From an uncultured Lachnospiraceae bacterium (GTDB lineage: Bacteria > Bacillota > Clostridia > Lachnospirales > Lachnospiraceae), in the NCBI GenBank assembly GCA_934437985.1, contig CAKSBI010000011.1:1-53644 (forward strand): DNA of 53,644 nucleotides. The letters run 5' to 3'. The position numbers were made by a program, and so were the translations under genes. Below the pieces are notes generated by a model. That model worked only from the letters and a program-made list of their open reading frames with translations, was not told the origin of the DNA and searched no databases. Positions 20,523-53,644 of this stretch are shown here, one piece after another (the first letter of the stretch is position 1; every line of letters begins with the position of its first letter).

Positions 20523-21161
20523 ATGACCTATTATATTGAAGACCTTGACCGGATGTCTGATACAAGACTATTAGACATTATTCATAATGACCCTGAAAAT
20601 TCGTCTTTTGTGATGGACTATTTTATAGAACGCCACAAAGGACTTGTCCGTATCCAGGCACGCTCACTTTTTTTAATCGGAGGTGACAGAGAGGATCTTC
20701 TTCAGGAGGGCATGATAGGGCTGTATAAGGCTTTGCGTGAATTTGACCCTGCTATATCAGATAACTTTGAGGGCTTTGCAAAAACGATTGTTTACCAACA
20801 GATGTGCAATGCTATAAAAGCGTCCACCCGCAAGAAAAACCTTCCTCTTAATGATTATATCTCATTTAGTTCCCCCGTTGCAGGCCAGGGAAATAACGAA
20901 ACATCACAGGTACTTTTGTCTGATGTTATCATGGCTGCCACTAATTCCAATCCTGAGGAACTAATTATTGACAAAGAGAATGCTTCTATGATAGAATATG
21001 AACTTGGAAAGCGTCTTAGTAAGCTTGAGAAGTCAGTATATGATATGTATACTGCAGGAATGGATTACAGACAGATTGCCGAAGCACTCTGCCGTACTCC
21101 TAAAGCAATAGATAATGCATTAACAAGAATACGCAATAAGCTTTCTGCAATGCTCTCGTAG
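20523..21161 (+). CDS. sigH: RNA polymerase sigma factor of the SigH (Spo0H) type
   Basis: Sigma-70 family factor of 212 residues. Region 2 contains DLLQEGMIGLYKALREFD (core binding and -10 recognition) and region 4 near the end contains YRQIAEALCRTPKAIDNALTR, a helix-turn-helix for the -35 box. Both its size and its position after cysS-mrnC-rlmB match Bacillus sigH, which controls early sporulation and stationary-phase genes. The ATG at 20523 follows AGGAG closely; an in-frame upstream start has no such site. The stop codon lies inside the tRNA-Thr gene. Confidence 0.88.
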   Translation: MTYYIEDLDRMSDTRLLDIIHNDPENSSFVMDYFIERHKGLVRIQARSLFLIGGDREDLLQEGMIGLYKALREFDPAISDNFEGFAKTIVYQQMCNAIKASTRKKNLPLNDYISFSSPVAGQGNNETSQVLLSDVIMAATNSNPEELIIDKENASMIEYELGKRLSKLEKSVYDMYTAGMDYRQIAEALCRTPKAIDNALTRIRNKLSAMLS

Positions 21162-21224
21162 CTCAGCCGGTAGAGCGTCCGCTTGGTAAGCGGGAGGTCA
21201 GCAGTTCAAGTCTGCCCGAGAGCT
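21152..21224 (+). tRNA. tRNA-Thr (GGT anticodon)
   Basis: A full cloverleaf: acceptor GCTCTCG (21152-21158) with CGAGAGC (21217-21223), D-arm GCTC...GAGC, anticodon stem TCCGC/GCGGG with loop TTGGTAA (anticodon GGT, threonine), variable AGGTC and T loop TTCAAGT. No CCA is encoded. The first 10 bases overlap the end of sigH, whose last codons and TAG stop are the acceptor strand itself. Confidence 0.93.
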
Positions 21225-43797: not shown

Positions 43798-43848
43798 AAA
43801 GCACAAAAAAGCTGACTGATAGAATGCCAGTCAGCCTTTTTGTGCTTT
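43798..43848 (-). terminator. Terminator of the surface-protein operon
   Basis: AAAGCAC-AAAAA-GCTGACT (43798-43818) pairs with AGTCAGC-CTTTTT-GTGCTTT (to 43848). The stem plus T6 on the minus strand closes the operon that ends at 43870; the symmetry would also let it work on the other strand. Confidence 0.85.
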
Positions 43849-43869: not shown

Positions 43870-44355
43870 TCATCCTCCCACAGTGGTATTCAGCATTACA
43901 GCTCCGGCGCTATAGTAGGTGTCCGGCTCATACGCCATGATTTTGAGCCTGATGGCTGCCTTGTTTTCAGGAATGGTATCAAATGTAACTGTTCTTACAT
44001 ATTCATTCGGCTTTAAAAGTCCTGTTTCGGCAAGGATATTGTCCTCTCCATCAAGTATGCGCAGCTTTAACCAGACCCCATTGCTGTCATCATTAGTAAA
44101 ATACACATCCGCTGCGTTCCCATTCAAAATAACTTTTCCGCATATATGGGCTGAGAAATTCATCCCATCCCTGTAAATCTGCGTCCAGCTTTCGTCCGCC
44201 ACATCCGGCATACCGCTTTGCGCCGCTGTCTCAAACGGTGGCGGAATAAACTCTGCCTGTTCAGATTTTCCGCCTGTCAGGGCAAGAGACAGGAGCATTA
44301 CGAGAACAGCAAGAAAGCAAATAGCAGCAGAGAAATAAATGGCTTTACTCTTCAT
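43870..44355 (-). CDS. Membrane-anchored exported protein, unrecognised (paralogue of 45585-46133)
   Basis: 161 residues: a basic start, one membrane helix (AICFLAVLVMLLSLALT), a short Pro/Gln-rich spacer, then a beta-rich domain: NGNAADVYFTNDDSNGVWL, ILDGEDNILAETGLLKPNEYVR, and AVMLNTTVGG at the end. The part LKLRILDGEDNILAETGLLKPNEYV aligns with LQLEIDDVVILQSGRLEPGNMV of the gene at 45585, including the position of the G-L-x-P-N/G turn. Last gene of the operon. No known family; probably a structural or assembly partner of the other surface proteins. Confidence 0.7.
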   Translation of the reverse strand: MKSKAIYFSAAICFLAVLVMLLSLALTGGKSEQAEFIPPPFETAAQSGMPDVADESWTQIYRDGMNFSAHICGKVILNGNAADVYFTNDDSNGVWLKLRILDGEDNILAETGLLKPNEYVRTVTFDTIPENKAAIRLKIMAYEPDTYYSAGAVMLNTTVGG

Positions 44356-44402
44356 ATTTTCAGACTCCTTATTGTCTCTCAGCCTGTGTTCTCATGACAT
44401 TA

Positions 44403-44954
44403 TTAATCGTTTACCAAGGTTACCGTTACCTTACCGATTGCAGTGGCTGTAATCTTATCGGAGGAAAGCTCTCCGTTCAAGCCAATGACTGCGCTGGCCG
44501 TAGGTGCGCTTCCCGGCGCTGTCCCTACAGCACTCCCAAGCGTCAGATTAGTTATCGCTGTCCCCTTATTATTAGAAAAGCTACCGCTGATTCCGTTGTA
44601 TCCTGTTTCCTGTTCATAGTCAAGCTGTACGGTTATGCCCGCATTGGAATGATTTGTGACGCTGATTTTGTCTGCACCTTCACTACAACTCCATTTTGCA
44701 GCACTAATGTTGTCATATTGGTGCGTCGCCGGATTCCATGTTCCTGTCGAAGCATCTGTATAAGTAAAATCCATACTGCCCCAGGTGATGTCTACACTGT
44801 AAACCGTTGCAGCAGCACTACCTGCATTATAAGTACCCCTAACTATGGCACTGTCACTTCCGTTAACGGCAGTAATTTTATTTGCCGCAAAGGCGGTAAC
44901 AGACGTCATAAAAAACAGTGCCAAAGTGAGAATAACTGCAGATATCTTTTTCAT
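44403..44954 (-). CDS. Small secreted surface protein with the SVDITWGSM domain
   Basis: 183 residues. A signal peptide (ISAVILTLALFFMTSVTAFA) is followed almost at once by a beta-rich domain covering the rest: VYSVDITWGSMDFTYT, GTWNPATHQYDN, VTNHSNAGITVQLDY, and a final IGKVTVTLVND. The same domain makes up the protein at 44987 and the C-terminus of the giant protein. No sorting signal and no membrane helix besides the signal. GGGAG and AAGGA precede the ATG. Unknown function; probably a subunit of an extracellular structure. Confidence 0.75.
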   Translation of the reverse strand: MKKISAVILTLALFFMTSVTAFAANKITAVNGSDSAIVRGTYNAGSAAATVYSVDITWGSMDFTYTDASTGTWNPATHQYDNISAAKWSCSEGADKISVTNHSNAGITVQLDYEQETGYNGISGSFSNNKGTAITNLTLGSAVGTAPGSAPTASAVIGLNGELSSDKITATAIGKVTVTLVND

Positions 44955-44986
44955 TTTCCTTCACTCCCTTCCGGTATAAATACATA

Positions 44987-45514
44987 TTAATTCAGAGAAA
45001 CTTTAATAGAGCCAACCTTTATAAATTGTGAAGCACTACTGGCAAGGGTGCCTGAAAGCGTCAGCTTGGTACTTACGCTGTCGGCGCCGTCTACATTGCC
45101 CACAACACCGGCCGCGAGGGTATCAGACGCCACGCTGAACTTGCCGGCAATACTGCTGTAGCCCTCGTCGGCTGCATAGGCGAAGTTAACCTTTACATCC
45201 TTATTGGAGTGGTTGACGACGGTGACATCGTTGCCGTCCGCAGTCCAGCTTGCCGAGGTATTGTCGGTATACTTATGAGTGCCTGGATTCCACTCATGTG
45301 TGCCGGCGGCAGAATAGGTGAACTCCATGCTGCCCCATGTTATGTCCACACTGTATACTTCCGGCTCAGTTATGCCATCTACATACCTGGCTTTTACATC
45401 AATGCTCTTGCTGTCGTTTTTACCGGACATAGTTTCCGCTGAGGCCATCCCTGCCTGCGTGGCCATGAGCATCAGCGCCAGCACCATAACGGCGAATTTC
45501 TTTTGTTTCTGCAT
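44987..45514 (-). CDS. Small secreted surface protein with the SVDITWGSM domain (second copy)
   Basis: 175 residues. Signal peptide KKFAVMVLALMLMATQAGMASA; mature part starts near ETMSGKND. Domain text: EPEVYSVDITWGSMEFTYS, EWNPGTHKYTDN, VTVVNHSNKDVKVNFAY, IKVGSIKVSLN. It shares VYSVDITWGSM-x-FTY with its neighbour and the pattern W-N-x-x-T-H-x-Y, N-H-S-N in the same order, so the two arose by duplication. AGGAGGAG precedes the ATG. Confidence 0.75.
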   Translation of the reverse strand: MQKQKKFAVMVLALMLMATQAGMASAETMSGKNDSKSIDVKARYVDGITEPEVYSVDITWGSMEFTYSAAGTHEWNPGTHKYTDNTSASWTADGNDVTVVNHSNKDVKVNFAYAADEGYSSIAGKFSVASDTLAAGVVGNVDGADSVSTKLTLSGTLASSASQFIKVGSIKVSLN

Positions 45515-45584
45515 TAAAAACTCCTCCTTTTATGCTATTTTAATTTTTTTTATATATTTCACGCCATTACAGGCGAAAAAAACG

Positions 45585-46133
45585 TCACTCAGTCACCGTA
45601 ACGGTTACGGGAATTTCAGTATTAATCATGGCCTTTTCCCTGCTTGTGCGGTCATAATACAGGACGACGAATTTTCCATTATAGCCTCCTGCGGCAAGAC
45701 GCTTTTCAGCACCGTCCAAAAGGTTCAGGGTGGAGACCATGTTACCGGGCTCCAGTCTGCCCGATTGCAGGATAACAACGTCATCTATCTCAAGCTGAAG
45801 CACCATATCCTGGTTAGATTTTGTCGGATTGGCAAACTGAAGTGTTGCACTCTTATCCAAAAGGCTGATATCAACCTCTTTTGCATAGGTAAGACCTACT
45901 GCCCCGCCGCCCTCGGGCTGCGAAAGCTTTTCGTCACCATCGTCACCGATCGGCTCGGCATTTTCTTCAATCTGCTGCGGTGCATAGTCGGGGGCAAGGA
46001 CGATAGTGCTGTCCCGAAACCATACCGCCCAAACACTGAGGCTCATTGCGGCAATCGTAATAAGCAGTAAAAGCAGAAGCAGCAGCCACTTCTTTTTATT
46101 TTCTTTTTTCTCATCATTCTTCTCATCGTTCAT
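45585..46133 (-). CDS. Membrane-anchored exported protein, unrecognised
   Basis: 182 residues from the ATG at 46133, 7 nt after GGGGGTG, right behind the stop of the giant protein. A strongly charged cytosolic tail (NDEKNDEKKENKKKW) precedes one long membrane helix (LLLLLLLLITIAAMSLSVWAVWF), then an acidic spacer and a beta-rich domain: SATLQFANPTKSNQDMVLQ, RLEPGNMVSTLNLLDGAE, TEIPVTVTVTE. Paralogous to the 161-residue protein at 43870 in that last part. An anchor or chaperone role at the outer face of the membrane is a guess. Confidence 0.7.
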   Translation of the reverse strand: MNDEKNDEKKENKKKWLLLLLLLLITIAAMSLSVWAVWFRDSTIVLAPDYAPQQIEENAEPIGDDGDEKLSQPEGGGAVGLTYAKEVDISLLDKSATLQFANPTKSNQDMVLQLEIDDVVILQSGRLEPGNMVSTLNLLDGAEKRLAAGGYNGKFVVLYYDRTSREKAMINTEIPVTVTVTE

Positions 46134-46135
46134 GC

Positions 46136-49100
46136 TCAATCACCCCCAATCGTTACCGTTACCGACCCGAGAACCTCATTAACCATTGTTTTGTTCGGTT
46201 TTCCGTCCAGAACCAGCCATGCAGATTTATCTTCTCCTACAGAAAGGGCAACCGGCGTGGTGACAGGTACTGCTCCATCGGTAATAAAACCACCGGACAC
46301 CATGCTGTTATCTTGCGTGTAGCCATAGGATACGCTGACATCAACTTCACCTGCATTATGGACGGTAACCTTGTTCCCATCCACCGTATCCGTGCTCCAG
46401 CCTACACCCTCATAGGTGTGCGTTGCCGTGTTCCATGTTCCATCCGAGTAGGTAAACTCCATGTCAGCCCATGTGATTTCCACACTGACAATGTCAACAT
46501 GAACATCCTTGTATCTTATAATACGGTTTCCCGCATTATCAACGGCTGTTACGGTTATCCTTGTATCTCCTGCCGGAAGCTCCGTCAGCGTAAAGCTGAC
46601 ATCGTTTTCCGGGTTCCTCAGGTCTACCGGAGTTACCGTGCCGTTTCCTATCTTATAAGTCACCGAAGTAAGCCCCGATGGGCTTACACCGTTCCCACTG
46701 TCCTTTACAGTCACGGTCATTCCCGATGCCTTGGTATACTCGCCAAAGGTAATCCCGGGAGCGGTTTTGTCTATTTGAACAAGCTCAAAACCCTCAGTTT
46801 TGTTGGCTTCCCTGTCTGTCACCGTATCGCCCGTATTATCGTAAACCTTATAATAAACGTAATACCGGCCTTCATCACTTACCGTAATTGTATCTCCGGT
46901 AAGCTCCGTCAATCCCTCGGTCGGAATTTCATCCCTGTTTGAAACAATTTTGTACCATTTATTACCAATTCCACTCTGGCTATCACCTGCAGTTACAGTA
47001 AAGACCTGATTATCCTTTGACCAGCCGCCTGACCCGCCGCTTACGGTCACGGCCGGCGGGTCAAAGTCCAGCTTATCAACCTTTATAGTGGCACTGTTCT
47101 CTCCGCCGTAGTCAAGGTCACGTACAGTCACCGTATAATCACCGTTCTTCCTCGCCCAGACCTCACCGCCTGCCTCCTTGCTTATTTTTCCGTCCGGCAA
47201 AATAACCTCATAATTCTTTCCGGTGTAATTGGAAAGCTTCCAGGTCAGGGTTGCCGTATCGTTTGTCCACACTGCCGGGGCACCTGTTATGGTAATTGCC
47301 GGTGCGTGATTCTTAACCGCAATTGAGGAAATAACGGTATACGGCGATGAATAGGCCGTACAAGTATGATTCAGCTTATCGGTGACCTTAATGTGCAGGT
47401 ATTTGGTGGCCGGTGTACTATCAGTTGCCGTATAGGTGACCGTTGCCGCACCTGACGAAAGCGTAGTCCACGAAGCCGGCGTTGCAGTGCTGTCCGTCCA
47501 ACAGTACTGCACGGTTTTCACGCCCGAATGTGCGTCGGCATAGGTTATCGGCAAAACAATCTTTGTGTAAACTCCGCTTTTTGGTGATTCAACAGAACCA
47601 CTTGTCAGTTCTCCGATAGAAGCCGTAGGGTTTTCCTTGTCAATCTTATCAACCTGAACGGTTTTAGTAATAACAACATCTCCCGCTTTCAGCAAAAATG
47701 TATAATAACCACTTTCGGTAACCGTAACGCTTGTTGCAGTATTGCCCAGCGTTGTCCATGAGGTCCCACCCGACTTGCGGTATTTCAGCGTTTGCCCTCC
47801 CACCGCCGAAATATTTATTGTTCTGCTCGTTGCCCAGTTTGTATTATCTGCCGTAACATTCAGCGTTGGCTGCGTGCTGCCGGCTGCAGGGCTTGCCGCC
47901 GTGCCAAAATTAAGACAGGCGTTTTTATAAGCCGAAGCTCCTGTTGTAGTGTAAACCGCTTTCACATGAAGATACCACTTGCCATTGCCCGCACCACTGC
48001 CCGGTTTTTTGCGGATGGAAAGCGAAAGTCCTGAATTTTTTTTCGCAGTCACAAGCTCCGATGATGAAAGCTCCACCCAGCCGGTCGTAGGCGCAGTCGT
48101 TGAATCCGACCAGGCATAGCTCATTCCCGTGGTCTTTGCTTTATCTGCATTCACCGTAATGGTTGCTTTGCCAGTGCCGTTCGTAATACCATTTGCAGTT
48201 ATGGTGAAATCCGGCATTGAAGTATCAACGGCTGCATCTGTGGTTCCCGTGCCGCTTGCGGTCTCTTTTGTTGTTGTGATATTGCACATATCTTTGATAT
48301 ATTGCGGATTTGTAATGCTGTTTACAGCCAGCTTTCCGCTTGCGTTAGCCGCTACCGTTCCCCTAAAATAGAGGACATTTGTATCTGCGCCGCCGGCATA
48401 AGTGGCTGTTCCCCAGGTTGTTTTCACCACAACATTTTTAATATTGCCACTATTCTGGCTGTCAACGATCTCGTCAAAAATCAAAGATACCGTATAGGCA
48501 TCACCTACCTTGTAAGTCCCACCCGCCATAGGAGCGACTGCGGCAAGCTGGGGTTCGCGTGAATCCAGCAGCTTGAGATAATGATATTCGTCCTTTTCCA
48601 TCCATTTGTCACTGCCACTGCCGCTGGCGCTGTATCCGATAGAGATTTTATCCTGGGTAACAGGAAAAATTAATGCTTTTTTGTCCCCATATCCGCTCTT
48701 TATATGTTCGTTACTGGGATTCCTCGCCGTTGCTCCGGCTGAGGATGGAAAATAGTAGGGGGCATAATCTTTAGTTGTTCCAGTTCCCCCATGCTCCAGG
48801 GTCATTGCGTAGGCAGCAGGACTCATATCATTAAAATCAGTAAATCCCTTATACTTCCCTCTTTCCGGGTAGAAGCTTGTGTTAATAGAATCACCGGGCG
48901 TGATCTGAATATGCTGATATCCCTGTTCCACTTCTTTGATATAAACCTTCATATAATACAAAAGACCGGTCGCCGTATTTTTCCAATAGTTCCCATCCAA
49001 ACCCGGAACACTGACAGTTATCGTGCGCGAAGCGGCTCTTCCAGTTTTCCCTTTATACCATCCCAAGTTATCACTGTCATAGTCCCCACGTGTCGTCTCC

Positions 49101-51022
49101 TCACTATATGATGCAAAGCTCTTATAGTCAGTATAGTAATTCCTATTCACTGTATAATCAGAACCATTTTTCAACGTTCTCACAGCACTCGTTGTACTGC
49201 CCAGACTTCCGCCTCCGGATACCCTGTAAATTTCCACCGAATAGGTGCGGTCTGCATTGCTATAGGCGGTGGCAGATTTGCCGCTGTACGGCGTGTTTGC
49301 CGTCTTTTCGGTTATCGTTATGGTTCTTGATGTCTCTCCAGCCTGAAAGGTCCGTGTGCCGTAGCTGTGTGTAAAATGCGTACCGCCCACCGCTGAGCCG
49401 TTGACCGTGCGGTAATAGACAGTCTGCACGCCCTCACTGCCACCACTTCTTGTTATCGTGAATGTGTTATTATTGTTTTTTATTGTAAATGTACCGTACG
49501 CGGGAATTCCCAGACCTATCGTAATCTCCTCGCTGTAATAAGTGACCCCGCCTGCGGTAATATACGCCCTGGCATAATATTCCACTCCCTTTTGCAGATT
49601 ATCAGCCGTGACGGAAATTGTGCCGCCCGCCTTGTTTACTACGGACGCTGTCGTGGCCTTGCCATTATTTACGGTAAGGGTCGGCGAGTTCATAACTCCC
49701 CACACAAAGCCGCTTGCCGTAACTGTGTCAGTGCCGGGATTGTTCAGCGTGGAGGTGAGTTTTTTTGTACCTGCCGCAAAAACAGGCTTAGAAATATCCA
49801 CATAAGAAGAAACATAAACCGAGCAGCTTTCTGTGGCTTTATTTCCCGCTTTATCCGTGACTGTTACAGTGACATTTTTATTACCCGGCGTCTTGGTAAA
49901 GTCTGCAGGTATAGTCACTGTAATGGTACATTCTGAAACAGGCTCGTTGTCCGTGACAGTGAGAGCGGCACGTACCACATTTTCCACAGCCGCATTGGAG
50001 TCACCTGTCATAACCTGGGTAGGCGTATAGCCGATATCCGGAGCCTGAATATCCTTCCACTGAGCCGAAAGCCGCATTGAGCCCACAGGGGTAAAGCTCT
50101 GCCCTGCTGAATAAGTATTATTTGCACCAGCGTCTTTCCAGTTTATGAACGAATAACCGGTGCGGGTCGGTGTCTGGGAAGATATTTTGCTGACTTTTCC
50201 CTTCCAGGCCGCCAAAACAGCAGGAACATTGGCTGCATTTGTGCCGTTTCCGTCATAGCGCACAGCCAGCGGACTTTGGAAATCCACCGTAATGGAATTT
50301 CCCACGCTGTCTGATATAACAAATGTAACCGTGTCAGGAGCCTTAAACGAAACCGTATAGCTTCCGTGGTCTAAAACCTTGCTTTTATCTCCATCATATG
50401 TAATCGTAACGCTGTAATCTGCCGGATTTTCCGAGCCCTGCTTTTCAATATTATTCAGGGAAGCCGTTACGTCTCTGAAGGTAACACTTTCCTCCTCATA
50501 GATATAGGCATAGTATGGTCCACAGTTCTGTGCACCACTGGCTTTGCAGAAATAGCGGTATTCGGTGGGAGTTCCGGAATTCGGAACCTTATAAAGCCCG
50601 CCGGATTTACAGCCGTCAAAGTCCTTGCCCGGTGTGATAACATCCACATAAACCTTTACTTCGGCATCCCTTCCATACCTGTTTTTTATGTAGGTGGAAG
50701 AACTGTTCGCTATATCCGTCGCTTTTAATATCGCCCCTGCACCAAGCGAGGATACAGCATCACCATAATCGTAAATTCCGTTCAAAAACGCATAGTTTTT
50801 ACCTGGCTCGAACACAGTTGTTTCCACAAAGCTGTGGTAAATGAAGGCTTTCCCACTACCGTTTGCTCTTTTTAAAGCGATGGGCGAAGACGTTTCCGCC
50901 GCATGGGTAGCAGATCCGCTGTTCCATGGTACCGCGCCGGCAAGCTGGGAAAGTACGATAATAAGACACAAGACCGCCGCCGACAGGCGTTTTATTATTC
51001 TCTTTTTCCTATCCTTCATCAT
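46136..51022 (-). CDS. Giant secreted multi-domain surface protein
   Basis: 1628 residues from the ATG at 51022 (GGGGA lies 9 nt before; an ATG at 51031 is too close to it). A signal peptide (SAAVLCLIIVLSQLAGAVP) is followed by a unique region with six or so cysteines, an InlB/Flg_new-type repeat (about 265-335: AVRYDGNGTNAANVPAVL, TRTGYSFINWKDAG), Ig-like domains, a fibronectin-like segment, a Calx-beta-like domain (FTITRSGGSEGVQTVYYRTV, GTRTFQAGETSRTITI), and a long series of HYR/Ig-like domains with DNAGN and VDKLDFDPPAVTV text. The last 115 residues (VSVEITWADMEFTYSD onward) are the domain of the two small secreted proteins. No LPXTG or SLH. It overlaps the gene before it by 14 bases. Confidence 0.82.
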   Translation of the reverse strand: MMKDRKKRIIKRLSAAVLCLIIVLSQLAGAVPWNSGSATHAAETSSPIALKRANGSGKAFIYHSFVETTVFEPGKNYAFLNGIYDYGDAVSSLGAGAILKATDIANSSSTYIKNRYGRDAEVKVYVDVITPGKDFDGCKSGGLYKVPNSGTPTEYRYFCKASGAQNCGPYYAYIYEEESVTFRDVTASLNNIEKQGSENPADYSVTITYDGDKSKVLDHGSYTVSFKAPDTVTFVISDSVGNSITVDFQSPLAVRYDGNGTNAANVPAVLAAWKGKVSKISSQTPTRTGYSFINWKDAGANNTYSAGQSFTPVGSMRLSAQWKDIQAPDIGYTPTQVMTGDSNAAVENVVRAALTVTDNEPVSECTITVTIPADFTKTPGNKNVTVTVTDKAGNKATESCSVYVSSYVDISKPVFAAGTKKLTSTLNNPGTDTVTASGFVWGVMNSPTLTVNNGKATTASVVNKAGGTISVTADNLQKGVEYYARAYITAGGVTYYSEEITIGLGIPAYGTFTIKNNNNTFTITRSGGSEGVQTVYYRTVNGSAVGGTHFTHSYGTRTFQAGETSRTITITEKTANTPYSGKSATAYSNADRTYSVEIYRVSGGGSLGSTTSAVRTLKNGSDYTVNRNYYTDYKSFASYSEETTRGDYDSDNLGWYKGKTGRAASRTITVSVPGLDGNYWKNTATGLLYYMKVYIKEVEQGYQHIQITPGDSINTSFYPERGKYKGFTDFNDMSPAAYAMTLEHGGTGTTKDYAPYYFPSSAGATARNPSNEHIKSGYGDKKALIFPVTQDKISIGYSASGSGSDKWMEKDEYHYLKLLDSREPQLAAVAPMAGGTYKVGDAYTVSLIFDEIVDSQNSGNIKNVVVKTTWGTATYAGGADTNVLYFRGTVAANASGKLAVNSITNPQYIKDMCNITTTKETASGTGTTDAAVDTSMPDFTITANGITNGTGKATITVNADKAKTTGMSYAWSDSTTAPTTGWVELSSSELVTAKKNSGLSLSIRKKPGSGAGNGKWYLHVKAVYTTTGASAYKNACLNFGTAASPAAGSTQPTLNVTADNTNWATSRTINISAVGGQTLKYRKSGGTSWTTLGNTATSVTVTESGYYTFLLKAGDVVITKTVQVDKIDKENPTASIGELTSGSVESPKSGVYTKIVLPITYADAHSGVKTVQYCWTDSTATPASWTTLSSGAATVTYTATDSTPATKYLHIKVTDKLNHTCTAYSSPYTVISSIAVKNHAPAITITGAPAVWTNDTATLTWKLSNYTGKNYEVILPDGKISKEAGGEVWARKNGDYTVTVRDLDYGGENSATIKVDKLDFDPPAVTVSGGSGGWSKDNQVFTVTAGDSQSGIGNKWYKIVSNRDEIPTEGLTELTGDTITVSDEGRYYVYYKVYDNTGDTVTDREANKTEGFELVQIDKTAPGITFGEYTKASGMTVTVKDSGNGVSPSGLTSVTYKIGNGTVTPVDLRNPENDVSFTLTELPAGDTRITVTAVDNAGNRIIRYKDVHVDIVSVEITWADMEFTYSDGTWNTATHTYEGVGWSTDTVDGNKVTVHNAGEVDVSVSYGYTQDNSMVSGGFITDGAVPVTTPVALSVGEDKSAWLVLDGKPNKTMVNEVLGSVTVTIGGD

Positions 51023-51305
51023 CCGCTCCATTCCCCTTCCGATAATCCTGTCTATTCATCTGTTCTAAGAGCATCTGGTCTGTTTTCTCCCGTAAAAGGA
51101 GCAGCATATCAAGCTCCTTGAGCGATAAATCAAAGCCTTCTTTATTGAACAGCGCCAGCAGCTCGGTAAGATAACATCTTTTGCTCATTTCACCCCGCCG
51201 CAGGGAGAGGTTTTTCAGCGCTGTTTTCAATTGCTCATTGGTATCCAGTTCATAATTGAATTTTGCCGCCTTGTCAAAAGTCAGCTTCTTCTTATTGAAA
51301 AACAC
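51009..51305 (-). CDS. Small helical cytosolic protein of unknown function
   Basis: 98 residues, starting with GTG at 51305, 7 nt after a perfect GGAGGTG. Predicted mostly helical, with basic and acidic stretches (LKTALKNLSLRRGEMSKRCYLTELLALFN; LKELDMLLLLREKTDQMLLEQMNRQD), and no signal or membrane helix. It is the first gene of the surface operon and its end overlaps the giant protein gene by 14 bases, so translation is coupled. It may regulate, chaperone or help export the giant protein. No known family. Confidence 0.65.
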   Translation of the reverse strand: MFFNKKKLTFDKAAKFNYELDTNEQLKTALKNLSLRRGEMSKRCYLTELLALFNKEGFDLSLKELDMLLLLREKTDQMLLEQMNRQDYRKGNGADDEG

Positions 51306-51346
51306 ACGCTTTCACCTCCAGGCACTTATAATTAGTAATAAATATA

Positions 51347-51373
51347 ATAAAAAACCACCCTTATGGATGGTTT
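51347..51373 (-). terminator. Rho-independent terminator after the histidine kinase gene
   Basis: On the minus strand AACCATCC-ATAA-GGGTGGTT (8-bp stem, one G-U pair) is followed by TTTTTTATT. It separates the two-component genes from the surface operon that they flank. Confidence 0.75.
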
Positions 51374-51377
51374 TCTT

Positions 51378-51407
51378 CGTAATTGGTCGTTTTTTTAACG
51401 TAATTGG
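51378..51407 (-). promoter_or_regulatory. Putative LytTR-type binding site
   Basis: CGTAATTGG occurs at 51378-51386 and again at 51399-51407 (CCAATTACG on the coding strand): two identical 9-bp direct repeats with a 12-bp spacer, period 21 bp. This is the classic arrangement bound by LytTR regulators. It lies directly after the kinase stop and some 70 bp upstream of the surface operon's first start codon. Confidence 0.6.
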
Positions 51408-51416
51408 CATTCGGAG

Positions 51417-52694
51417 TCAGGTTTTCAGGATAATGCACAGGGTGAGGATGCCGTTCTCTAAGCTATAACTTATATCACCGCCGTATTTTCTCGCTGCTGT
51501 CAGCATACTTTCCATGCCGATTCCTTTCTGCTTTATCATATTGTTTTCAATAACAAGCCCAGGTTTGCAGGGGTTACTGCACACAATAACGGTTTTATCC
51601 GAAACAGTCCGGATATTGACCTTTATCTCTCCGTGTGAACCACATTCCTTGCAGCCGTTAATGGCATTTTCCAAAATGTTTGAAAGAATAGCAACAAAAT
51701 CCATATTGCTAACGGCAGTTTCTTCCTGCGTATCCGCTTCGACAGAAACACAGATTCCATCATTTTGCGCTTTGGTATAAAAGCTGCTAAGTATTGCATT
51801 TACCGTCACATGGTGGCAAAACTCCCTGGGTCTTGCGGCATCCAGGCTTTCATTGTACTGTTCTATGTAGCTCAGGGCCTCATCAGTCTCTCCCTTTTGG
51901 AGCATGACCGCGATATTTTTGTTGTGATGCCGGAGATCGTGCCTGACAGTCCTGGCAAACAGCTCGTTTTCTTTTGATGTTTTAAGCTGGCCCTGCAGAT
52001 ACTTTATATTTTCTTCAATCAGCTCCAGTCTGCTTTCCTTTATCATATAGCGGATCATACCAAAAATAATCCACAATACCGAAAAATAAATCAGAACAGT
52101 GGCGGCAAACAAAAGGCTGTACCATGCCCTGAAATCATTTTTCAGAGTATAAATAAAACAAAATATAGAAAATACCGCTAAGAACAGTATGGATACCAGT
52201 GAGATAGAGCGCCATATTTTCTTGTCTGAACCCGGAACCTCCCGCATTGCCGGACGCAAAAAGACAATATATGCCCATATTGCCGGCAGATACAACAGGG
52301 TTCTTATGATTGTTTTCACGTATATGGCAGCAACACCGTATTCGTCATTGAACCAGATGCTGCTTATCATAGCTGAACTACAGAAGAAAATGCAGAATAT
52401 CGATGAATAACTGAGAAACAGAAACACCTTTTTACAGGCAGGATCTGCCGAAGTCACCATGAAAATAATAAACGACACAAACATGGTACTTACAAACGTA
52501 AGGGAAGTAGCATAAAAAGGGTGAATATCAAACAGCACCCGGGAAACAAGCATTGAAAAACAGACAAAGATTGTCAATAAAACAAAATAAAATGAAACTG
52601 TCTTTTTTACCGAATATTTTCGCTCTGTCATAATAGCAAAGCAGACGATATGCATCAGGACTATAAGTGTTAAAGCCACAAGCTGACGTGTCAT
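51417..52694 (-). CDS. AgrC/GHKL-type membrane sensor histidine kinase
   Basis: 425 residues. Six or seven membrane helices fill the first 220 residues (typical for peptide-sensing kinases), then a coiled region (SRLELIEENIKYLQGQLKTSKENE), the phospho-acceptor motif RTVRHDLRHHNKNI, the N box NILENAINGCKE and the GHKL ATPase region with NNMIKQKGIGMESMLTAARKYGG. It pairs with the LytTR regulator by a 4-base overlap (ATGA). No agrB or agrD gene lies in the window, so the signal is unknown. Confidence 0.9.
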   Translation of the reverse strand: MTRQLVALTLIVLMHIVCFAIMTERKYSVKKTVSFYFVLLTIFVCFSMLVSRVLFDIHPFYATSLTFVSTMFVSFIIFMVTSADPACKKVFLFLSYSSIFCIFFCSSAMISSIWFNDEYGVAAIYVKTIIRTLLYLPAIWAYIVFLRPAMREVPGSDKKIWRSISLVSILFLAVFSIFCFIYTLKNDFRAWYSLLFAATVLIYFSVLWIIFGMIRYMIKESRLELIEENIKYLQGQLKTSKENELFARTVRHDLRHHNKNIAVMLQKGETDEALSYIEQYNESLDAARPREFCHHVTVNAILSSFYTKAQNDGICVSVEADTQEETAVSNMDFVAILSNILENAINGCKECGSHGEIKVNIRTVSDKTVIVCSNPCKPGLVIENNMIKQKGIGMESMLTAARKYGGDISYSLENGILTLCIILKT

Positions 52695-53419
52695 TTTCCG
52701 GTTGCCTCCCTTGTGTAAAAATCAAAATACTGCTTTTTCAATTCTCCCCTCAGCCGCCTGGGAACAGGTATGCGATCCCCATTTGACATTTCAAGGGTTG
52801 TTTCAAGCAGGCTTTGCACACAGCGCAGGTTGACTATGTATGACGCACCAACTACCGCAAAACCATTTACTGTCTGAAATATATTTTTAAGCTCCGTAAG
52901 GGTCGTGTGTGTTTTCAGGCACCTGCCGGATTTCAGATGGATTCCTACACTGTGATTCTTTACATCCGCATACAAAACATTATACAAATCTATGCGGTGA
53001 ATCTCCTTTCCGCACGAAACAGGGATATATAAACGGTTACGCCTCTTTTCAATCACCCTGTCAAGCGTGTCCGTCAGCCGCTGTCTTGTGTACGGCTTTG
53101 TAAGATAGTCACCTGCATGAAGTGCGAACGCCTCTACCGCAAAATCGGGACTTGTCGTCAGAAAGATAATATCGGTATCTTCTTCGCCTTTGCTGAGAAT
53201 CTCTCGTGCAACCTCTGTACCCAAAATACCGGGCATACAAATATCCAACAGTGCAATATCAGGAGTACCGCTTTTGCCCATCTCTTCCAGCATATCGAAC
53301 GGGTTTGAGAAGCATTTTACAACAAGCGAAAGCTCCGAATGTGTAAGGGCATATTCGGCAACAATTTGCCGCATATTTTCAAGTTCACTTTTTTGGTCAT
53401 CACATATCATAAGGTTCAT
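52691..53419 (-). CDS. LytTR-family response regulator
   Basis: 242 residues from the ATG at 53419, 8 nt after GAGG (the frame is open to 53494 without a ribosome binding site). Receiver domain: LMICDDQKSELENM at the start, phospho-Asp in IALLDICMPGILGTEVA, KPYTRQRLTDTLDRVI. The LytTR DNA-binding domain runs from RRNRLYIPVSCGKEIHRIDL to PRRLRGELKKQYFDF, with CLKTHTTLTELKN and GASYIVNLRCVQSL. The neighbouring direct repeats are its probable target. First gene of the transcript. Confidence 0.92.
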   Translation of the reverse strand: MNLMICDDQKSELENMRQIVAEYALTHSELSLVVKCFSNPFDMLEEMGKSGTPDIALLDICMPGILGTEVAREILSKGEEDTDIIFLTTSPDFAVEAFALHAGDYLTKPYTRQRLTDTLDRVIEKRRNRLYIPVSCGKEIHRIDLYNVLYADVKNHSVGIHLKSGRCLKTHTTLTELKNIFQTVNGFAVVGASYIVNLRCVQSLLETTLEMSNGDRIPVPRRLRGELKKQYFDFYTREATGK

Positions 53420-53550: not shown

Positions 53551-53644
53551 CTACCCATTGTCTTAAGCCAATGGGCTTCCTGCTTCATCGACCTCGTTTC
53601 TACGTTCCACTCCGGTCGGAGCAGAACAAACATCCACCGGATGT
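53546..53644 (-). mobile_element. IS200/IS605-type element right end with tnpB 3' tail (partial)
   Basis: On the minus strand the frame reads WNVETRSMKQEAHWLKTMG and GSSH, the usual C-terminal end of a TnpB protein, and the DNA continues as the typical right end GGAAGCCCATTGG-CTTAAGA-CAATGGGTAGTTCAC, with a hairpin CCCATTG/CAATGGG. The coding part is cut by the window edge. TnpB is an RNA-guided nuclease whose omega-RNA overlaps this very end; the guide would be copied from the bases just beyond it (53545-53526). The exact cleavage point, taken as 53546, is inferred. Confidence 0.7.

Follow-up and report, generated by a model that had tools for sequence, protein, structure and literature searches.

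To our knowledge, little has been established about the way in which Clostridia of the gut attach large proteins, giant adhesins and proteases among them, to their surface, and the question is raised directly by an operon of an uncultured Lachnospiraceae bacterium. The operon lies in a contig stretch of 53,644 nt (hereafter the window) and encodes, among others, a giant secreted protein (L), two short secreted proteins (S1 and S2) that share a domain with the C-terminus of the giant, and two membrane proteins (A and B). What holds the giant at the cell? We report that the operon is one co-conserved surface-protein unit, five of whose six genes recur together in related loci, and that it very probably encodes a conserved modular surface complex in which the shared domain, given the working name WGxM from its motif, mounts the giant.

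A preliminary description of this DNA had listed a kinase gene, a regulator gene and six tightly packed genes, and all eight are present in that arrangement on the minus strand, to which all coordinates of operon features given here refer. From the operon's first gene, encoding a protein of 98 amino acids (aa), through B, adjacent genes either overlap or leave a gap of no more than 70 bp. L (46136..51022) is a protein of 1628 aa within an open reading frame (ORF) of 1631 aa and consists of variable cargo followed by a C-terminal WGxM domain of the terminal class (46148..46501, residues 1511-1628 of the 1631-aa ORF), which scores 59 bits against the family profile. The gene of A (45585..46133, a 184-aa ORF) begins just past the giant's stop and is followed by those of S1 (44987..45514, 175 aa), S2 (44403..44954, 183 aa) and B (43870..44355, 161 aa). 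That the two short proteins carry the C-terminal domain of the giant was borne out by BLASTP for S1 (E 2e-12 against giant residues 1506-1597) and by the WGxM family profile for S2 (200 bits). Both stop right after the domain, and a hydrophobic or LPXTG tail is absent.

With a 38-row WGxM alignment as the sole query, 51 related loci (labelled Lnnn) were found in the GTDB species set, and profiles of WGxM, A, B and a further family, X, were run on every ORF of these loci at thresholds of 40 bits (60 bits for X). Nearly all of the loci come from metagenome assemblies of Clostridia, for many of which an animal gut is the source, and Gemmiger formicilis ATCC 27749 is what we take to be the one cultured type strain recognised among them. 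The recurring order, on one strand, is L, A, one to three S genes (once four, in L017, which lacks A), B and often X. S occurs in 46 of the 51 loci; in 37 the gene immediately 5' of S (or of an S-like row) is A, and in 24 A is itself immediately preceded by L. B, present in 34 loci, stands directly 3' of S or L in 33, and X, present in 23, directly 3' of B in 22. A, S and B were found together in 28 loci (with one S copy in 12, two in 13 and three in 3), and the series from L through A and S to B in 17. Many of the loci are cut by contig ends, and 23 rows miss A, S or B, many of them at such ends. The gene order deviates in L013, L026, L045 and L050. In L045 an A-like fragment and a WGxM domain are encoded by a single ORF (1856-2827) and separated by a segment that looks X-like by eye; the ORF may represent a natural fusion or a frameshift.

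The preliminary description had proposed a search for co-occurrence of the six families as a check; five of them do recur together in the related loci, and the 98-aa protein (51009..51305) was rejected as a member of the conserved core because it has no match among the ORFs of at least 60 aa in the 51 loci, no wider search having been made. Association of the remaining genes is also seen in whole genomes. Among 197 genomes of the family to which Gemmiger belongs, WGxM was detected in 7 at E ≤ 0.001 and in 5 at E ≤ 2e-7, and A in 23, 6 of them at E ≤ 1e-20. All five genomes with strong WGxM matches are among the six with strong A matches; in four of them A and S are neighbours on the same contig and strand, and in the fifth A adjoins L. 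In a sample of 398 genomes from the phylum WGxM was found in 2 and A in 3, with strong matches limited to Gemmiger, and the system is therefore patchy. The search for relatives of S1 returned 80 protein clusters at E ≤ 0.001, that of S1 itself included. None of 21 pattern matches in IMG/VR was confirmed as a viral copy, and no match was obtained for plasmids.

The core of this set has no name in Pfam or NCBIfam, and the preliminary description had likewise matched the set to no named system. Neither S1, S2 and the C-terminal domain of the giant nor the window's A and B matched a Pfam or NCBIfam family above cut-off, and among the 38 WGxM members, which matched 22 Pfam families in all, no family exceeded the cut-off for the shared domain. 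Sequence searches retrieved no solved-structure relatives; fold searches gave generic immunoglobulin (Ig)-like matches, and no TasA, WxL or cohesin entry was noticed among the matches listed, which excludes nothing. Among the papers listed by text searches of the open-licence literature, none describes this gene set in its title or abstract.

WGxM domains fall into two classes. The letters NHS, with N, E, S or D as the next residue, occur in 65 of 73 N-terminal-type domains versus 12 of 37 C-terminal ones. In a tree of 113 domains, inferred from 123 columns and with many forks unresolved, 18 of the 38 L rows and a single S-labelled row form one group (support 91, not starred); the window giant's domain thus groups with 17 other large-protein domains, and the S-labelled row is the short protein that precedes A in L013. 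The S/L label changes 15 times on this tree versus a mean of 31.9 in shuffles, none of 500 being as low. That S1 and S2 are separate orthologues by position is not claimed, the corresponding label changing 11 times over 45 rows of a poorly resolved tree.

Between signal peptide and WGxM domain the S proteins carry a segment of alternating residues. In S1 this candidate donor strand is SIDVKARY (residues 37-44, 45383..45406), which is kept in the 38-row WGxM alignment (A1), and in S2 it is SAIVRGTY, picked by eye (residues 35-42, 44829..44852). A strand-motif matrix was built from alignment A1 and applied with a match threshold of p ≤ 0.05. The motif was found in 59 of 70 S proteins, a count that is partly circular because the matrix derives from S relatives. 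It was also found in the N-termini of 14 of 23 X proteins (10 at p ≤ 0.01), compared with 2 of 23 for a control stretch in the same proteins. Elsewhere it occurred in none of 38 A proteins, in 4 of 34 B proteins and in 7 of 34 L-type rows, 4 of the latter being NHSN-type domains with long N-termini.

X, encoded by the gene after B, is a secreted protein that keeps its N-terminal part and swaps its tail, which ends in an LPXTG signal in L001 (1783-2496), choline-binding repeats in L028 (11315-12508) and a dockerin in L018 (11469-12362; 34.0 bits). By eye, 16 of the 23 tails close with a TGD or TGE motif followed by hydrophobic and then basic residues. Ten X proteins were scanned with the Pfam LPXTG model, of which L001 alone scored above the cut-off, with L005 just under it. 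A family search with X returned 13 relatives. In the window the X profile matched nothing beyond the N-termini of S1 and S2, and no X gene lies beyond the terminator that closes the operon. X is a likely anchor, with its gene missing from the window.

The two membrane proteins had been described as sharing a domain, and they do: comparison of profiles built from 24 relatives each gave a probability of 98.9% (E 4e-17), though the relation is not visible to BLASTP (E 14). A was predicted by AlphaFold2 with a mean predicted local distance difference test score of 86.5 as a membrane helix (residues 8-40) followed by an extracellular Ig-like beta sandwich. The best Foldseek match was a SafB chaperone entry (E 7e-4), and PapD-type chaperones as well as other Ig folds were matched. 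The candidates scored included 1388 A relatives. The 51 A members gave scattered weak matches to FixH (in 12), Ribophorin_II_2nd (in 11, best E 6e-4) and ETRAMP (in 2, best E 5e-5), which were taken as chance matches of the membrane helix or the Ig-like part and not as an identity for A. Weak A relatives of about 42 bits, each with a transmembrane helix and an Ig-like domain, are encoded in L092 (629-1938) and L095 (825-2007) immediately upstream of secreted proteins that lack WGxM, and the one in L092 also precedes a small protein that has a hydrophobic stretch at its C-terminal end. The pairing of an A-type protein with a secreted subunit thus looks wider than WGxM, and these weak relatives beside other secreted beta proteins suggest that Clostridia may have a larger unnamed superfamily of such systems.

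The L proteins vary in length and content between loci, and usually carry WGxM once, at the C-terminus. Seven giants scanned whole contained BspA repeats, lectin-like, phosphatase, subtilase and fn3/PKD domains and InlB repeats. The giant of L034 (1127-6760) has a subtilase domain and a dockerin near its end, and that of L039 (1959-8957) purple acid phosphatase and calcineurin-like domains; the display platform may therefore carry enzymes. In L003, L004, L009, L011 and L016 the L gene encodes just about 300 aa, a first half and the WGxM domain, and the gene upstream of these adapters encodes a giant. Two of the first halves, those of L003 (19.7 bits) and L011 (17.5 bits), resemble cohesin, though neither reaches the cut-off of 24.1; those of L004, L009 and L016 had no match at E ≤ 0.01, yet all five can be aligned. 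A Cohesin domain above that cut-off (29.2 bits) precedes WGxM in a protein of L048 and can be aligned with the first half of the adapters, at a probability of 83% and partly over the signal peptide. When the C-terminal 389 residues of eight giants were scanned for Dockerin_1 (cut-off 22.9), L011 (24.5 bits) and L034 (24.0 bits) exceeded the cut-off and L009, L016, L018 and L040 fell below it; in the giants of L003 and L004 Dockerin_1 was not found by the scan, and dockerin-like repeats were noted by eye. Both halves, cohesin-like adapter and dockerin-bearing giant, are visible in L011 only. These domains suggest two ways of attaching the giant to WGxM, namely fusion, as in the window, and a cohesin-dockerin pair in some relatives. 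The arrangement resembles the cellulosome in that a dockerin-ended giant adjoins a short WGxM adapter that is partly cohesin-like. Unlike in the cellulosome, the adapter leads into WGxM, and the cargo domains seen are BspA repeats, fn3/PKD, InlB repeats or subtilase; the pair is absent from the window.

We propose that the WGxM domain would serve as the mounting module. An S protein may combine a WGxM acceptor with a free N-terminal donor strand, so that S proteins could form a short shaft or adaptor chain. L, with a WGxM acceptor and no donor of its own, would for that reason take the tip position as cargo, and X, with a donor-like strand, no WGxM and usually a wall-anchor-like tail, would for that reason be the base at the wall. 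In the manner of chaperone-usher pili and of TasA/TapA filaments, each donor strand would enter the domain of the next subunit. A and B, membrane-tethered proteins of predicted Ig fold, would most likely hold or chaperone the S subunits during assembly, and in operons without X, such as that of the window, one of them may act as the base. Gene content and order, the homologies, the domain classes and the exchange of tails and cargo are observed; the strand exchange, the polarity of the chain and the roles of A and B are what we infer, and the distribution of the strand motif fits the strand exchange. For the mechanism as a whole, a modular display fibre of Clostridia joined by donor strands, we consider the chances of its being right or wrong to be about equal. 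Its most specific form, a gram-positive donor-strand pilus with an acceptor-only tip, a shaft of donor and acceptor, a donor-only base at the wall, Ig chaperones in place of an usher and a tip that is swappable by fusion or cohesin-dockerin plug, is put forward as a tentative possibility.

Several known systems bear on this proposal and on its rivals. The closest in composition are the WxL/csc clusters of Bacilli (CscA-D, WxLIP), and the flat arrangement that they bring to mind, in which WGxM would bind peptidoglycan or A and B directly and the giant would protrude from a platform formed without polymerisation, is possible, if rather unlikely. Csc clusters comprise a small domain-only protein in one to four copies, a large protein that has the domain as its C-terminal part, two classes of that shared domain, a membrane-anchored protein and, often though not always, an LPXTG partner (PMC1534035, PMC9772566). 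The parts list is the same, and the four kinds of part match those of the WGxM loci, in which small and large proteins with a common C-terminal domain likewise lie in one cluster. For WxLIP, insertion of a strand into WxL has been predicted (PMC10599100). The possible counterpart of the LPXTG partner, X, is present in 23 of the 51 loci with the varied tails described above, and absent from the window. The two systems differ in that the membrane helix of the WGxM operon is N-terminal and that of csc C-terminal, in the presence of two homologous membrane proteins and in occurrence in Clostridia. WGxM is not detectably WxL: PF13731 had no match at E ≤ 1 in the eight window proteins and was not among the families matched by the 38 WGxM members, and in profile-profile comparison with seven WxL proteins the alignment was confined to columns 4-53, which cover the signal peptide and the N-terminus (probability 88%). 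Membership of WGxM in WxL was rejected, the domain-level comparison being negative against this shallow reference of seven proteins. WxL itself was found in 3 of the 398 phylum-sample genomes, 2 of them over the cut-off, and in none of 3 WGxM genomes. Nor are A and B detectably DUF916/DUF3324, which scored hhalign probabilities of 1.8% against A and 1.3% against B (with a shallow reference of 5 proteins), was unmatched in the window's A and B and was not among the 25 of 41 families listed for the 51 A members. A flat platform also leaves unexplained why the strand motif is common to S and X and missing from most L domains.

Polymers of two other kinds have been considered. A TasA-like matrix, with S as long homopolymers of a biofilm matrix and the giant as an accessory matrix protein, would accord with small secreted beta proteins encoded beside membrane proteins, and has a gram-positive precedent for strand donation: TapA combines the N-terminal strand of TasA with an Ig domain that is complete, and it initiates the filament (PMC10151520). 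The logic proposed here is similar to that of TasA/TapA in Bacillus subtilis, a different complete domain with the N-terminal strand of the repeating subunit starting or anchoring the chain. The TasA system is not known to include giant cargo or a wall anchor. Defined positions are suggested by the separate domain class of the large proteins and by the divergence of S paralogues in many loci, and neither the window proteins nor the 38 WGxM members had a Pfam TasA/camelysin match at E ≤ 1, so that we regard the matrix as improbable. The preliminary description had taken the giant for the main fibre subunit and the small proteins for minor ones, all held by A and B. The common C-terminal domain and the co-location of the genes fit this, but the large proteins vary between loci in what they contain and in how long they are, down to the adapters of about 300 aa, usually have a single WGxM domain, at the C-terminus, and seem to be dockerin-plugged in some loci. 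Because S is constant and often multi-copy while L varies, the giant is not supported as the major subunit; the assignment, which we consider very improbable, was probably the wrong way round. In chaperone-usher pili the tip is an acceptor only and the shaft donor and acceptor. The donor-strand fibre proposed here shares this tip/shaft logic, and the predicted fold of A was matched to PapD-type chaperones as well as to other Ig folds; unlike those pili, the WGxM system has neither outer membrane nor usher, no sequence relation was found, and its strand exchange is a proposal. It is unlike sortase-assembled pili, where every pilin bears a sorting signal, in that S1 and S2 end after the domain without an LPXTG tail.

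Upstream of the operon lie a GHKL (AgrC-type) sensor kinase gene (51417..52694, 425 aa, HATPase_c_5 45.5 bits) and a LytTR-type response regulator gene (52691..53419, 242 aa from the ATG at 53419; Response_reg 60.0 bits, LytTR 43.8 bits). These Pfam matches agree with the AgrC-like kinase and LytTR regulator recognised earlier, and the pairing is that of AgrC/LytTR two-component systems; no agrB or agrD was recognised by eye among ORFs of at least 60 aa at 41.0-53.6 kb. Both terminators reported previously were recovered, a hairpin with a 12-pair stem at the boundary of kinase gene and operon (51349..51376) and a strong one with a 20-pair stem that closes the operon (43800..43846). The direct repeats 5' of the operon, candidate LytTR sites (51371..51407), do consist of two 16-nt copies 21 bp apart (51371-51386 and 51392-51407, 81% alike), and three overlapping 9-mer windows in the 115-nt gap match at 8 or more of 9 positions versus a mean of 0.09 in shuffles. 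We treat them as suggestive because a 12-mer control over the 350 nt upstream of the operon gave p = 0.18. The same control on 23 upstream regions (L050 was left out) gave pairs at p of about 0.005 in four: L028 and L046, which adjoin a regulator, and L009 and L025, where no related regulator was seen, L025 being of low complexity. The value was 0.035 in L005 and L048, and 0.60 in L036, beside a regulator. Repeat pairs spaced 20-21 bp apart also occur upstream of L028 and L046, both beside a related kinase/regulator pair, and none with this spacing upstream of L036. LytTR repeats were rejected as a system-wide feature after this control. Kinase relatives were found in 3 of the 51 loci (one weak) and regulator relatives in 4, many loci ending short upstream. 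The kinase/regulator pair is a regulatory neighbour and no general feature of the system, and LytTR-type control of the window operon through these candidate sites is plausible, though weakened by the 12-mer control.

L of the window matches Pfam Calx-beta (27.4 bits, cut-off 27) and reaches 37.5 bits with OmpL47, under the cut-off of 40. Elsewhere in the window, a tRNA gene at 21152-21224 is the sole Rfam match above gathering score. A short hairpin sequence at the right edge (53554-53600), upstream of the regulator gene, seems to resemble the terminal part of an IS200/IS605 TnpB element; Rfam returned the tRNA only.

The families WGxM, A, B and X, co-conserved and without an accepted name, very probably form a surface-display complex, for which a strand-exchange mechanism is likely but unproven, and they come with a testable assembly rule. 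If that rule is true, a single C-terminal domain could identify as tip cargo giant proteins of uncultured Lachnospiraceae and Oscillospiraceae that have no assigned role, and a gram-positive counterpart of chaperone-usher assembly would become open to test in cultured Gemmiger formicilis.

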